Of a DNA stretch of 45,541 nucleotides, positions 11,296 to 41,038 are shown piece by piece. How positions within the stretch are numbered: the stretch's first letter is position 1; each line of letters starts with the position of its first letter. The stretch comes from an uncultured bacterium. GTDB lineage: Bacteria > Muiribacteriota > Ozemobacteria > Ozemobacterales > Ozemobacteraceae. The DNA lies in the NCBI GenBank assembly GCA_900317935.1, contig ONIU01000043.1, positions 1-45,541 of the forward strand, in the 5' to 3' direction. Made by a program: the position numbers and the translations under genes. The notes beneath the pieces are model-generated. The model had not been told where the DNA came from. It worked only from the letters and a program-made list of their open reading frames with translations, and did no database searches.

Positions 11296-13008
11296 TTATT
11301 CTTTTATTGTCTGGGCAAATCTGTCCAAAATCATTTCATAAAATTCCGGCTTTAATCGACCTCTATTTGCTTCGTTTAAAAGAGGTATGAGCGCTCTAAG
11401 GTCTCCATGCCAGCTAAGGGCTTCGAGAGTGTTTCTATAAACCATATCTTCATTATCATGAAGCATTCTGATAAGTATAGGTATACCTTCCGGGTCATCA
11501 ATCTGCCCAAGAGCGAAGACTGCAGAAGCTCTAACCCATCGGCTTCTATCGTGAGACATTTTTTCTAATTCAGAAAAAACTTCAGAGTGGCCGCTTTTCC
11601 AAAGAGCTATTGCTGCATTTACTCTAACGCGATCATTTCTGTCTTTTAACATTGAGAAACAGGCGTCAGCTAAACCTTCCCATTTATGAGTTGAAAGAGC
11701 TTCTATTGTATTTGCTCTTACTCTGGCATCTTTATTTTTTAAATGAGGAATAAGCAAATCAATGCATTGTGGGTGACTTATTCTGCCTAGTGCAGAAACA
11801 GCTGTTGCCATTACCCAGATATCTGTATTCGGAGTCTTGACAATATTTAGCAAGCATTCAATCAAGTCTGGAGATTTTATGTTTACTGTTGCTTCTATAG
11901 CATTGATTCTTAGCCATCTTTCCTTAGCATATAAAGCTTCTTTTACCAGATAAGATGCTTTTAAGCTTCCAATTTTACCCAAAACCAATAACAACTGTTC
12001 TTTTAGAAGCAAAGGCATTCTCTCGTAATCTAATAAAATTCGGTCTACTATTTTATCTCCGATTTCTCCTAAGGCTTCAATGCTGGCTTTTTGTATTTCT
12101 TCATCTGTTGATTGCAGAAGTTTAAAGAGTTCGTCAAATAGTAATGGAGTTTTTTCAGCAGCAGCTTTTTTGATAAGAAGAATACGAATAGCTTTTTCTT
12201 TTTCAATACTAAGCAGTTGTCGGATGATTTTAATTCTTTCGTCTGAAGCAAAGAGATTCAAGCCTTCTAAAGAGGCTTTTCTTATGTTTGCTCTGTTATC
12301 GCTGAACAGAATCTGATAAATATCTCTGTCTTCTATGAGTGGATGATAATTAAGTGAAGTTACAATTATCTGGCGAACTTCAGAATTTGATGATTTTGCC
12401 AGTCTTTTAATATGGTTGAAAGCACCTTGGTCTTTTAATCTCGAAAGTGCCAGGTTGGCGGTAAGAGAAATACTCCAATCCCCGTTTCCTGCCAGCATTT
12501 TTAAAGAAGTATGACGTTCTGCTGAGGGATATTTTATAAAGTAACTTATTGTTGCGGAAAGAAGTTCCGGGTCTCTCGTCTGACCTAATATTTCATTCAT
12601 TAGAGAACTTACTCTGATATCATTATATTCAGAAAGCAGTTCAACTATTTTTTTTCTTAGGGCAGTTGGCTGATCGGCACTACATGCTTTTATAACGATA
12701 TCTTCGACTGATGATAAATCTATTTTCTTTAAACTATTGAAAGCTTCACTGGAAATTTTTTCGTTAGGATTACTTATAAATTCGATAAGATACTTAACGG
12801 AATCGGGATTCCCTATTTGTCCAAGAGATTTTATTACTGCTGCAAGAATTTCTAAGTCAGGAGATGCAAGCAAGTCACAGAGTGCTTCAGAATGCTTTTT
12901 AATTCTTAGAATTCCAAGAGCAGCAATAGACATTAATTTAACTTCTCTATCAGAACTTTTAAGACCGTCAATAAGCTTTTCAAAACGTTTTTTAGAAGAA
13001 TCAGTCAT
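11296..13008 (-). CDS. HEAT-repeat protein (570 residues)
   Basis: Almost the whole length consists of HEAT/PBS-lyase-type repeats of about 31 residues. Clear ones are LEILAAVIKSLGQIGNPDSV, ASIEALGEIGDKIV, TAVSALGRISHPQCIDLLIP and RASAVFALGQIDDPEGIPIL. No enzyme domain, signal peptide or membrane segment is seen, so a cytoplasmic scaffold is the likeliest reading. The gene has a good ribosome site (AAGAGGAAAG before ATG). It lies 25 bases after murA and 17 bases before the second HEAT gene, so all three are probably one transcript. What it binds is unknown. Confidence 0.85.
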   Translation of the reverse strand: MTDSSKKRFEKLIDGLKSSDREVKLMSIAALGILRIKKHSEALCDLLASPDLEILAAVIKSLGQIGNPDSVKYLIEFISNPNEKISSEAFNSLKKIDLSSVEDIVIKACSADQPTALRKKIVELLSEYNDIRVSSLMNEILGQTRDPELLSATISYFIKYPSAERHTSLKMLAGNGDWSISLTANLALSRLKDQGAFNHIKRLAKSSNSEVRQIIVTSLNYHPLIEDRDIYQILFSDNRANIRKASLEGLNLFASDERIKIIRQLLSIEKEKAIRILLIKKAAAEKTPLLFDELFKLLQSTDEEIQKASIEALGEIGDKIVDRILLDYERMPLLLKEQLLLVLGKIGSLKASYLVKEALYAKERWLRINAIEATVNIKSPDLIECLLNIVKTPNTDIWVMATAVSALGRISHPQCIDLLIPHLKNKDARVRANTIEALSTHKWEGLADACFSMLKDRNDRVRVNAAIALWKSGHSEVFSELEKMSHDRSRWVRASAVFALGQIDDPEGIPILIRMLHDNEDMVYRNTLEALSWHGDLRALIPLLNEANRGRLKPEFYEMILDRFAQTIKE

Positions 13009-34737: not shown

Positions 34738-35232
34738 TCAGCTGAATTCTTTCAGTAACTCTTCCAGTTCAGGGTCATCGAATGGCTCGTCTTGAGATTC
34801 CTTAATCATAAAGACGAGCTTTTTCATTTCTAGTTCAGTAATTTTACCATTATTCTTAGCTGGAAGTTTATCAGCTTCTTCTTTCAACAGCTTCTTGATA
34901 AACTTTTCTCTAGTAGTTTTATCGCTGACAACCTGGAATATTTTTTCAGCTAACACTTGAGGATCACACATCTTATATGTGCCTTCCTGAATCTGACGTG
35001 TTATTTCCTGTATATGTTCCATCCTTTGCAGCTGTTGCTGTTGAATGATACGCATATTGTTTTCCATGTTGCTGCGCATCATTATTGGCTGATTTGCACT
35101 ACTAGAGGCTTTTGAAGTTCCTGAAGTTTTGGTTTTTAAAGCATCATCGAAAGATGAACTTTTATCAACCTTTGCTTTAGGTTTTGTTGTAATAATAATA
35201 GTTTTCCCAGAGCCATTAATGGCGTCAACCAT
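34738..35232 (-). CDS. FlgM-like protein (possible anti-sigma-28 factor)
   Basis: A 164-residue soluble protein. The N-terminal half is disordered, Ser/Lys/Thr-rich, then Gln/Met-rich. The segment ITRQIQEGTYKMCDPQVLAE near residue 80 matches the FlgM core pattern (helix, G-x-Y, then a short helix with VA/LAEKI). FlgM holds sigma-28 inactive until the flagellar hook is complete. Here the protein is longer than the usual 100 or so residues, has an acidic C-terminal extension (DDPELEELLKEFS), and no flagellar structural genes are in the window. The divergent promoter region carries sigma-28-like elements. The assignment is tentative. Confidence 0.45.
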   Translation of the reverse strand: MVDAINGSGKTIIITTKPKAKVDKSSSFDDALKTKTSGTSKASSSANQPIMMRSNMENNMRIIQQQQLQRMEHIQEITRQIQEGTYKMCDPQVLAEKIFQVVSDKTTREKFIKKLLKEEADKLPAKNNGKITELEMKKLVFMIKESQDEPFDDPELEELLKEFS

Positions 35233-37516: not shown

Positions 37517-37900
37517 ATGCCCAAAACTATTCTTGTAGCAGAAGACTCATTAATGCTACGTAAGGTTGCCTGTTTCCCTCTAGAAAAGACAGGTTATAAG
37601 GTGTTGGAAGCCAATAATGGTATCGAAGCAATTGAAGCAATGTCAAAAAATCATGTAGACATGCTTATAACAGACCTGAATATGCCTGGCATGGATGGTT
37701 TTGAACTTATTGCTCATGTTAAAGAAGACGAAAAGTTCAAGCATATTCCTATAATCATCCTTACTACTGAAGGCAAAAAAGAAATGGTAATGAAGGGTTT
37801 AACTCTTGGTGCCAATTCTTTCCTACAGAAGCCTATTAAACCAGATCTTATGCTTCAGGAAGTTGAAAGACTTCTTAACAAAGCAGCCAAGGGGGCTTAA
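37517..37900 (+). CDS. CheY-like single-domain response regulator
   Basis: A 127-residue stand-alone receiver domain. The acidic pair Glu9-Asp10, phospho-acceptor Asp53 (LITDLNMPGMDG), Thr83/Thr84 and Lys105 (QKPIKP) are in place, so it should accept phosphate from a histidine kinase. None is coded in the window. No output domain is attached. Only two bases separate it from the HEAT-CheR gene, so the two are almost surely co-translated. GGAGG precedes the ATG. Confidence 0.95.
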   Translation: MPKTILVAEDSLMLRKVACFPLEKTGYKVLEANNGIEAIEAMSKNHVDMLITDLNMPGMDGFELIAHVKEDEKFKHIPIIILTTEGKKEMVMKGLTLGANSFLQKPIKPDLMLQEVERLLNKAAKGA

Positions 37901-37902
37901 TT

Positions 37903-40900
37903 ATGGCAACAGCAGAAGTACTTCTTGAACAACTGAAAAATACAGATGCTAATCTTCGTAGAAAAGCTGTTCGCAGTCTTACCGCTTATCCAGAAAACAA
38001 AGATGTTGTATCTGCTCTTTGCGAAGCTCTTGGTGACCCAAATAAAGGGGTTCAGAACATAACTATTGAGACACTTTCTTCAATGCCTCATGAAAATGTT
38101 GTGTTGGGACTCATCAATGTTGTAAAAAGCCCTGATTTGAATACAAGAAATGCAGGCATGACCATTTTGCGTAATTTAGGGTCTATGGCTATTGATCCAA
38201 TAGTAGCAGCTCTAAATGCTTCAAAAGACGTAGATGAAATTATTCAGCTCTTGGTTATTCTTGGCGATATAAAGTCTCATCTTGCTACTGATACTGTTAT
38301 TAAGTATATAAATCATGAAGATGATAACGTTAAAACAACAGCTGTTGAATCATTAGGCAAGATTCAGGATCCAAAAGCTGTTAAAGTTCTCCTTGAAACC
38401 TATAAGACTACAGATATTCTTAAATATTCTATTGTAGAAGCTTTAGGTAATATCGCTGTAGAAGAAGTTTTGCCAGTATTGATAGGTGCTTTGGAATCTG
38501 GCGATATGCTTGAATATTTCACTGCTATTGGTGCTTTAGGTGCAACTGAATCTCCAAAAGCTATCGAAGTATTATGCAAAAAGATTAATACCGAAGAAGA
38601 TTCCGGAACAAGAAGACTAATCTTTAAATCTTTGGCACAGATTGAACAGGCTAATCCAGGTTCTGTCAAGAATTTTACCTCAGACAGCCTTGTTAATGTG
38701 CTTGTTGGTCTTTTGGACAATCATGATGCAGCAGAATATCGTTATCTTGTAGAAGTTGCCTCTGCATTGGAAAACGAAACTTTTGCCAATGCTTTGCTTG
38801 ATGCTTTGCAGAGTCCAGAAGAAGAAATATCAGAAGCAGCTTTCTCAGGTCTTTGCAAATTAGGCGTTAAGGCTGTCAGAGCTTCTTTAGATAAGATTGG
38901 CAGAGTAGAACCAACAGTTGCCGTTAAGATTCTCCGCTATCTTGAAAAGTATCCTTCAACAGAAGTTCCCAGTGCCATTTCTATGTTCTCTCAGAATCCT
39001 GATGATTCTTTGAGACAGGCTTTGGCAAAAACTCTCGGTGCTTGCAAGTCTGAAATAGCATTTAGCACATTGAAAGAAATGCTCAATGATATTGATGAAA
39101 CAGTTCGTAAGAATGCTGTTATTTCTATTTCAGGCATGTTGGATTGTCCAGGGGCAATCCAGGCTCTTATAAACAAATTCAGAGATATAAATGGTCACGT
39201 TAGACGTGAAGCTTGTTCTGCAATGGCAAATACTGGAAGTTCTGAAATAATAGAACCTCTTTTCGGTGTTATTGCCGCTGAACCTTATGGTGACGTTCGT
39301 GAAGCCGCAGCCACTGTTCTTGCTAAACGCAAAGATCCTGCAATTACAAAGAGACTTCTTGAAATGCTTGACGATGTTAATTCTAGAATTCGTGAAACAA
39401 TTTCAAAGACTATTTGGCAGTGTGGTTCAACTGTTGCTGTAGATTCTCTCATCAATAAGCTTGGCGATAGCGAATGGCGTGTAATTGTAAATTCATGCAA
39501 TTCTCTTGAAAATATGAGAGATCTGAAGTCTATTTTCCCGTTAAAGGAATTGTTGAAGAATGGTGACTGGCAGATTAGAATTGCTGCCCTCTCTGCATTG
39601 AGAGCTTTCAAATCCAGCCAGCTTAAACAGTTCTTCATTCCATTGCTTGCCGATGAAAATCCTCAGGTAGCTAAGCTTGCTGTTGTTGCTTTGAGTGAAA
39701 TTGGTGACAAATCATTAGATTCCGATTTCAAGAAATATATTAGTCACAGCAAATGGGAAGTCAGATACCAGATTGTTAAGGCTCTTGGTTCAATAAAGAG
39801 CACAAGCTGTATTGAACTCTTAAAGCAGATTGTTGAAAATGATGCCAGCAATGCTGTGAGATCAGGAGCAATCCTTACTCTTGCAAAACTTGGCGATACT
39901 ACAAGTTCAGATATCATTTTCAAAATGCTTGATAATGAAGATAAGAATCTTGTTGTTGCTGCAATTAAGTATTTCAAAGACAGACCAAATGGACACGCTG
40001 GTCTTGAAGAAAAGCTTAAGGATATATTCTGTAAAGATGCATGGATAAAAGATTATTTTATTAACACATTTGCTCAGAATAGTTCTGAATTCATCGAAAA
40101 AATACTTAAAGATGTTGTTGCTCCAAGACAGGCTAGATATATTGACCGTATAAAGAAAGCTACTGTTGAAGAAAAGGGTATGAATGATGAAGAAGCTCTT
40201 CTTCTCAGAGAAATAATTTCTGATAAATGCGGTATCGAAATAAAAGACAAGAAGGTTCTTGAAAGCAAACTTAGCCGCAATATGGCTAAATTCTTCATTA
40301 CTTCCTGGACAGAATATTATCATAGCTTGAAATATGGTTGTGAAGAAGCTATGCTTACAAGTCTTTATGACTCTATCACTAATCCGGTCACTGAATTCTT
40401 TGGTGAACCTCAGCAGACTAAGGTTTTGATTTCCAACATTCTTCCAAGTCTTATTGAAGAAAGAGTTAAAGCTAATAGCGAAAAGTTAAGAATCCTCTGC
40501 TGTGGTACTTCTTACGGTCCAGAAGCTTATTCTATAGCATTATCTGTAATAGAAGATTTACATACTGATAGAATCAATATTGAAGTAACAGGTATTGATA
40601 TTTCTCACATCTGTTTGAATACTGCTAAGAGAGGTATTTACAAACGAGAAATATTCAGATTTGTAGACCAGAAATATACAGACATTTACTTTGAAGATGA
40701 CCGCGGCGACCTTAGAATTAAAGACGAAGTAAAGAATAAAGTCGAATTCAAGTTTGCTAATACCTTAGATTCCGAAGCAATGGAACAGCTTGGTGAATAT
40801 GATGTAGTTATCTGCCGCAATCTATTCTCAGATTTCTCTCAGAAAGCTAAGGAAAGAATGGCTGAAAATATTTATAACATTCTTGTTCCAGGCGGCGTTC

Positions 40901-40992
40901 TTCTTATTGCTGGTAAAGAAACTCTTTACAATGTAACTAAGGCTTTCAGACTTCAGTCATTTGATAATGTAGTTGCTTATAAAAAACTATAA
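37903..40992 (+). CDS. HEAT-repeat protein fused to a CheR-type methyltransferase domain
   Basis: Residues 1 to about 735 are a long HEAT/PBS-lyase solenoid of roughly 20 repeats (for example VKTTAVESLGKIQDPKAVKV and VRREACSAMANTGSSEIIEP). Residues about 745-1029 follow the CheR layout: a helical N-part (LREIISDKCGIEI), NPVTEFFGE at 827, the SAM-binding CCGTSYGPEAYSIAL at 866, TGIDIS at 896 and VVICRNLFSDF at 968. CheR methylates chemoreceptor glutamates. Here the Arg usually found in T-x-FFRE is Gly834, and GEEPYS reads GPEAYS with the second Glu kept. SAM binding may be altered or lost. It partners a CheY-like receiver in one operon. No chemoreceptor gene is in the window. Confidence 0.85.
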   Translation: MATAEVLLEQLKNTDANLRRKAVRSLTAYPENKDVVSALCEALGDPNKGVQNITIETLSSMPHENVVLGLINVVKSPDLNTRNAGMTILRNLGSMAIDPIVAALNASKDVDEIIQLLVILGDIKSHLATDTVIKYINHEDDNVKTTAVESLGKIQDPKAVKVLLETYKTTDILKYSIVEALGNIAVEEVLPVLIGALESGDMLEYFTAIGALGATESPKAIEVLCKKINTEEDSGTRRLIFKSLAQIEQANPGSVKNFTSDSLVNVLVGLLDNHDAAEYRYLVEVASALENETFANALLDALQSPEEEISEAAFSGLCKLGVKAVRASLDKIGRVEPTVAVKILRYLEKYPSTEVPSAISMFSQNPDDSLRQALAKTLGACKSEIAFSTLKEMLNDIDETVRKNAVISISGMLDCPGAIQALINKFRDINGHVRREACSAMANTGSSEIIEPLFGVIAAEPYGDVREAAATVLAKRKDPAITKRLLEMLDDVNSRIRETISKTIWQCGSTVAVDSLINKLGDSEWRVIVNSCNSLENMRDLKSIFPLKELLKNGDWQIRIAALSALRAFKSSQLKQFFIPLLADENPQVAKLAVVALSEIGDKSLDSDFKKYISHSKWEVRYQIVKALGSIKSTSCIELLKQIVENDASNAVRSGAILTLAKLGDTTSSDIIFKMLDNEDKNLVVAAIKYFKDRPNGHAGLEEKLKDIFCKDAWIKDYFINTFAQNSSEFIEKILKDVVAPRQARYIDRIKKATVEEKGMNDEEALLLREIISDKCGIEIKDKKVLESKLSRNMAKFFITSWTEYYHSLKYGCEEAMLTSLYDSITNPVTEFFGEPQQTKVLISNILPSLIEERVKANSEKLRILCCGTSYGPEAYSIALSVIEDLHTDRINIEVTGIDISHICLNTAKRGIYKREIFRFVDQKYTDIYFEDDRGDLRIKDEVKNKVEFKFANTLDSEAMEQLGEYDVVICRNLFSDFSQKAKERMAENIYNILVPGGVLLIAGKETLYNVTKAFRLQSFDNVVAYKKL

Positions 40993-41000
40993 TCTGAAAT

Positions 41001-41038
41001 AAAAAAAGCCTACGTGTAAAAGCGTAGGCTTTTTTTAT
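41001..41038 (+). terminator. Intrinsic terminator
   Basis: GCCTACG pairs with CGTAGGC around an 8-base loop, extended by A-run/T-run pairing; it ends the receiver-HEAT-CheR unit. Confidence 0.93.

Follow-up and report, generated by a model that had tools for sequence, protein, structure and literature searches.

Of the two enzymes of adaptation in chemotaxis, CheR is the one that normally methylates receptors. In the stretch of DNA analysed here (the window, 45,541 nucleotides from a Ca. Riflebacteria genome of the Ozemobacteraceae, whose close relatives are rumen genomes), a CheR-type domain is fused to a giant array of HEAT repeats and encoded directly behind a lone CheY-like receiver. Does a CheR domain in this setting still transfer methyl groups and, if not, what would it be retained for? 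The original prediction, made from the letters alone, was of a separate signalling device in which the HEAT part selects the target or the CheR part only binds.

Domain make-up of the receiver and HEAT-CheR pair

Open reading frames, Pfam and AlphaFold2 bear out the predicted arrangement, in which a HEAT array carries a CheR-type domain and is preceded in tandem, on the same strand and at a distance of two bases, by a CheY-like receiver (Table 1). A strong terminator closes the pair, so that receiver and fusion are apparently a two-gene unit. HEAT_2 matches the fusion in nine stretches, giving some 750 residues of repeats, and Pfam lists no TPR family for the protein, the repeats being HEAT. 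With 21 orthologues as input, AlphaFold2 predicts one unbroken all-helical solenoid up to about residue 751, followed by a CheR fold; mean pLDDT is 84.5 and mostly 85-95 in the solenoid, while confidence in this full-length model is low at the Arg98 loop and at residues 901-937. Column conservation reaches 0.84-0.93 in residues 451-600, compared to ~0.6-0.8 in the rest of the solenoid. The CheR-type domain scores well above the curated PF01739 cut-off of 27 and matches CheR structures at an E value of 1.9e-21 (phmmer). Folded alone, it finds CheR1 of Pseudomonas, Salmonella CheR and B. subtilis CheR as its best PDB matches, with TM ~0.73-0.82 to 5ftw and 1bc5 (Foldseek). The window encodes a further large HEAT-repeat protein at 11296-13008 on the minus strand (570 aa; HEAT_2, 196.7 bits).

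Table 1. Features of the receiver and HEAT-CheR genes. Positions are those of the window, residue numbers those of the fusion protein unless named after E. coli CheR.
Feature	Position	Strand	Basis or state
CheY-like receiver, stand-alone	37517..37900	+	127 aa; PF00072 98.1 bits
HEAT-CheR fusion protein	37903..40992	+	1029 aa ORF
HEAT solenoid, residues ~3-751	37909..40155	+	PF13646 (HEAT_2) 256.8 bits; AlphaFold2
HEAT segment with the highest conservation (candidate binding surface), residues 451-600	39253..39702	+	column conservation
CheR-type domain, residues 757-1029	40171..40989	+	PF01739 126.2 bits, E 1.4e-36
Gly834 codon, position of catalytic Arg98	40402..40404	+	G/A/S/D in 22/22 orthologues
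GPEA (872-875) replacing GEEP	40516..40527	+	Glu874 = E129, retained
Helix and beta-subdomain segment under strict conservation, residues 903-945 (ICLNTAKRGIYKRE...EDDRGDLRIKDEVKN)	40609..40737	+	column invariance
Asp977 codon, position of catalytic Tyr235	40831..40833	+	D/A/S/V/T in 22/22 orthologues
Intrinsic terminator	41001..41036	+	stem of at least 14 pairs, -24.7 kcal/mol, z -9.5

Loss of the catalytic pair in a domain under selection

The fusion is carried by 22 of 24 Ozemobacteraceae genomes, which rules out an assembly artefact as its source; it is present in 0/16 genomes of other Ca. Riflebacteria families and in no other sampled family. Pairing with the receiver is obligate: the receiver lies directly upstream in every family genome where the contig extends far enough, and where the fusion is missing, in two incomplete family genomes (69% and 83%), so is the receiver.

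Alignment to E. coli CheR, whose residue numbering we use throughout, confirms both of the changes originally read from the sequence, namely a glycine in place of the catalytic arginine and GPEA in place of GEEP, although the latter is less severe than it appears, the second glutamate of the motif being retained. A further loss had gone unnoticed: Tyr235 has given way to aspartate. The Salmonella CheR structure identified R98 and Y235 as the key pair for catalysis (PMC3447774). Neither is present in any of the 22 orthologues, and the position of Asn92 is proline in all of them. On the SAM side of the domain, Glu129, Asp154, Asn212, Arg230 and Glu264 are invariant in 21/21 full-length orthologues, the first four corresponding to E874, D899, N953 and R972 of the fusion. 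As controls we considered 77 other CheRs, 37 of them mostly from Ozemobacteraceae (eight from other genomes) and 40 from other families. Arg98 is retained in every one, and Tyr235 is tyrosine in 76 and phenylalanine in one; both residues are present in 40/40 CheRs of other families and in 14/14 members of the CheB-linked paralogue set. Note that one CheR without Arg98, L078, is the partial orthologue of genome G010, and was placed in the orthologue set rather than among the controls. The coordinated loss of Arg98 and Tyr235 is most simply explained by one event in evolution, and the 22 genomes should therefore not be counted as 22 independent tests.

Might the protein nevertheless be an ordinary adaptation methyltransferase, tethered by its HEAT array and tolerant of these substitutions? 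Its score above the CheR cut-off would be consistent with this, as would the catalytically complete HEAT-CheR pairs and fusions that occur elsewhere in ordinary che operons. However, every orthologue lacks both catalytic residues, swarming is abolished in R98A bacteria (PMC3447774), no che operon surrounds the gene, and the genome's two other CheRs have R98 and Y235. We consider this explanation very improbable and reject it on the loss of both catalytic residues.

Pentapeptide-tether residues are absent from many active CheRs too. Those of the beta-subdomain comprise Q182, R187, G188, G190, G194 and R197 (PMC2577667); in the fusion they are mostly missing (D at 182, a gap at 187 and E at 190 in the alignment), with only G194 and R197 matching, in one alignment.

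With its catalytic residues gone, the CheR domain could be regarded as an evolutionary leftover, so that the HEAT part and the receiver alone matter. Selection on the fusion speaks against this. Among species of the one genus compared, dN/dS is ~0.06 in the CheR half compared to ~0.08 in the HEAT half (rough values, as dS is near saturation), and 0.02 in the beta-subdomain, based on one usable pair. Between genera, too, the CheR half is the better conserved of the two (73-77% identity versus 60-69%), and the domain is present in all 21 complete orthologues. The low dN/dS of the CheR half thus indicates that the domain is not decaying and, along with conserved length, rules out a decaying gene; the leftover explanation strikes us as extremely improbable. 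Comparison with the paralogous CheR of Ozemobacteraceae, bearing in mind that the two sets are unequal in size and depth, reveals where conservation is concentrated: 22 of 40 aligned columns in residues 903-945 are invariant, versus 0 of 40 in the paralogue, and constraint on the beta-subdomain is 0.81 versus 0.53, while conservation of the Arg98 loop is 0.71 as opposed to 0.86 in the active paralogue.

A weightier alternative is that the domain is still a methyltransferase, with altered chemistry or a new substrate that the HEAT part picks. A fixed catalytic base is dispensable in many SAM methyltransferases, which makes a different transfer reaction conceivable, and for SAM enzymes proximity alone can suffice for transfer. 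Continued methyltransferase activity would be in keeping with the retained fold and SAM-side residues and with the strong purifying selection on the CheR domain. Yet the residues at the Arg98 and Tyr235 sites are now variable (Table 1), so that no new catalytic residue has become fixed there, and the Arg98 loop is, as just noted, less conserved than in the active paralogue. We therefore deem continued methylation unlikely, albeit worth taking seriously. Because the absence of the arginine is fixed family-wide together with the loss of Tyr235, the suggestion that the CheR part only binds now appears to be the best reading of these sequences. The module as a whole probably binds rather than methylates, since the catalytic pair is lost, the domain is strictly conserved and its gene always stands beside one receiver.

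The receiver, flagella and the genome's other chemotaxis genes

The receiver has no output domain and retains all key residues (E9/D10, the phosphoacceptor D53, T83 and K105), which are invariant across family genomes that share 83-99% identity in this protein. We rejected the idea that it evolves unusually slowly: the flagellar CheY is equally or more conserved (92-96%, versus 88-90% for the window receiver in the same genomes), and a slow rate is read simply as core function.

Could the receiver be the motor CheY, with the fusion modulating its access to the flagellar switch? The family is mostly flagellated (FliG in 20 of the 22 members examined), the pair has a conserved FlgM-like neighbour, and in H. 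salinarum coupling between Che signalling and the archaellum requires the HEAT protein OE2401F (PMC2666748). Against this, the genome encodes a separate CheY within the flagellar operon, beside FliM/FliY, which shares only ~30% identity with the window receiver; on this ground we rejected the latter as the flagellar CheY. In the receiver tree, moreover, the window receiver falls with receivers of HEAT operons, outside the flagellar CheYs (77/97; bootstrap weak, SH-aLRT strong). Nor does the module track flagella, given that other Riflebacteria families have FliG and lack the module. A role at the motor thus seems rather improbable, and the separate flagellar CheY supports the original notion of a separate signalling device.

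Gene order flanking the pair is common to most of 20 Ozemobacteraceae neighbourhoods. The FlgM-like protein, which has an EF-hand-like C-terminus, is encoded at 34738-35232 on the minus strand of the window and is conserved next to the pair in most family genomes. Its Pfam score is marginal (25.2 bits versus a cut-off of 25) and it misses the NCBIfam cut-off; we set it aside as proof of a flagellar role.

The HEAT-CheR gene is not part of a che cluster. Among the neighbouring window genes scanned against Pfam and NCBIfam (part of the window's open reading frames), none encodes an MCP, CheA, CheB or CheW, and the receiver is the sole che-type gene. The remark that no receptor gene lies nearby thus holds for these neighbours, but carries little weight given how widely this genome disperses its che genes: it has five MCPs, the flagellar operon contains CheA and a kinase-less CheA-like protein, CheW is located elsewhere, CheB shares another contig with a CheR, and a further contig has a CheR with a TPR gene behind it.

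Some of these loci merit description in their own right. The CheA-like protein (L114, 8828-10369 on the minus strand of contig G000:C311) adjoins the flagellar CheA and consists of 513 aa with Hpt, P2 and CheW domains, without a dimerisation or ATPase domain; CheW matches in frames of ~500-600 aa near CheA suggest that such a protein recurs in the family. At L034 (701-4414, contig G000:C126), CheR is directly followed by a TPR-repeat gene of 886 aa, a split counterpart of CheR-TPR proteins. In Ozemobacteraceae, a second short FliG_C protein (~148 aa, e.g. G020:C1:7311-7625) lies beside FliG, an arrangement not seen in the other Riflebacteria families sampled.

HEAT-CheR partnerships elsewhere and a possible mechanism

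When 382 genomes were searched with a whole-protein profile, the nearest CheRs beyond Ozemobacteraceae proved to be stand-alone. At 22 of the loci examined (L190-L231), from 18 families, CheR is preceded by a HEAT gene in the same orientation, within 150 bases in 19 of the 22; note that loci were picked by match score, so that these frequencies are no census. HEAT repeats were confirmed by Pfam in the proteins checked. Such operons contain the same three parts as the module, with HEAT upstream and a receiver often adjoining CheR. They differ in that the parts are separate proteins, the CheRs have the full catalytic set, and genes for CheA, CheB, CheW, MCPs or receivers are also present at most loci. 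HEAT repeats are likewise N-terminal to CheR in one protein in two other lineages (L210; L211 and L212), but these fusions are shorter (650-670 aa), have R98 and Y235, and adjoin CheB.

Catalytically complete fusions in ordinary chemosensory operons thus exist in these two other lineages, but none of the 22 orthologues of the present fusion is of this kind. In the CheR tree, L210, L211 and L212 nest inside the HEAT-operon CheR clade, and their fusion is therefore independent of that in Ozemobacteraceae, whose proteins form a clade of their own on a long stem (1.25) that shares a branch with the HEAT-operon CheRs (89/92), although the tree does not recover the two as sisters. Judging from sequence, Ozemobacteraceae have a separate fusion of their own that is operon-free and has lost catalysis. 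The HEAT-CheR layout, first taken to be foreign to standard chemotaxis, is accordingly less exotic than it seemed, HEAT and CheR genes being neighbours in 18 other families and fused in two further lineages. As an operon partnership the combination occurs in many lineages; what is unusual is the catalytic loss together with the free-standing receiver pair.

No description of HEAT-CheR fusions was found in the open-access literature searched. Comparable designs are known, however. CheR-TPR proteins such as FrzF and WspC likewise fuse solenoid repeats to CheR, and four of them, with N-terminal TPR, lack R98 and Y235 and may be inactive (PMC3447774). That subgroup is the nearest precedent for the loss seen here, although the fusion has HEAT rather than TPR, ~750 aa of it rather than a few repeats, and a strict receiver partner outside any chemosensory cluster. 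FrzF, whose TPR part restrains an active CheR enzyme, is a precedent for a solenoid that controls a CheR (PMC2535941). In M. xanthus the receiver CheY7 is bound by the HEAT protein Cpc7 (cited in PMC11514114), again a HEAT protein with a single-domain receiver; no CheR domain on Cpc7 is mentioned there, and the pair described here is known by gene pairing and co-occurrence. Halobacterial OE2401F (PMC2666748) is a second precedent for a HEAT protein that co-operates with a receiver. Stand-alone CheRs (E. coli, Salmonella) share the fold and the SAM-side residues, whereas the fusion lacks Arg98 and Tyr235, has mostly unconserved tether residues, and has gained a HEAT array.

How might such a module work? 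The explanation we prefer, to which we would give an even chance, is a receiver-controlled HEAT scaffold bearing a CheR docking module that binds SAM/SAH, probably does not methylate, and derives from an operon ancestor. Under this explanation, the module would stem from a chemosensory operon, namely from its HEAT-CheR-receiver part, a descent suggested by the adjacency of the three genes elsewhere and by the grouping of the receiver with operon receivers. HEAT and CheR would have merged into one protein, the module would have moved out of the che operon, and the CheR part would have lost its methyl-transfer residues but kept its pocket for SAM/SAH along with a docking surface under strict conservation. 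Once phosphorylated, the receiver would bind the HEAT solenoid and thereby position or release the CheR domain, which may then dock on a partner, be it a chemoreceptor or some other target, without methylating it. Docking could be conditional on bound SAM or SAH, and the outcome might be competition with active CheRs or recruitment of the receiver. A bolder version, which we advance only tentatively, is that the fusion is a receiver-switched, non-catalytic docking protein that reads SAM/SAH from its HEAT scaffold, and represents the pseudoenzyme branch of a widespread and undescribed HEAT-CheR-receiver adaptation module.

If the preferred explanation is true, the fusion would be a natural example of how an adaptation enzyme can be put to new use in binding, family-wide and under strong selection, and a catalytically stripped CheR would offer a clean test of CheR roles beyond methylation. 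Independently of its mechanism, the HEAT protein beside CheR, a regular operon partner in at least 18 other families, is a chemosensory component that is apparently undescribed in the open-access literature searched. Two Ozemobacteraceae genomes carry an unfused HEAT/CheR operon of this kind alongside the fusion.
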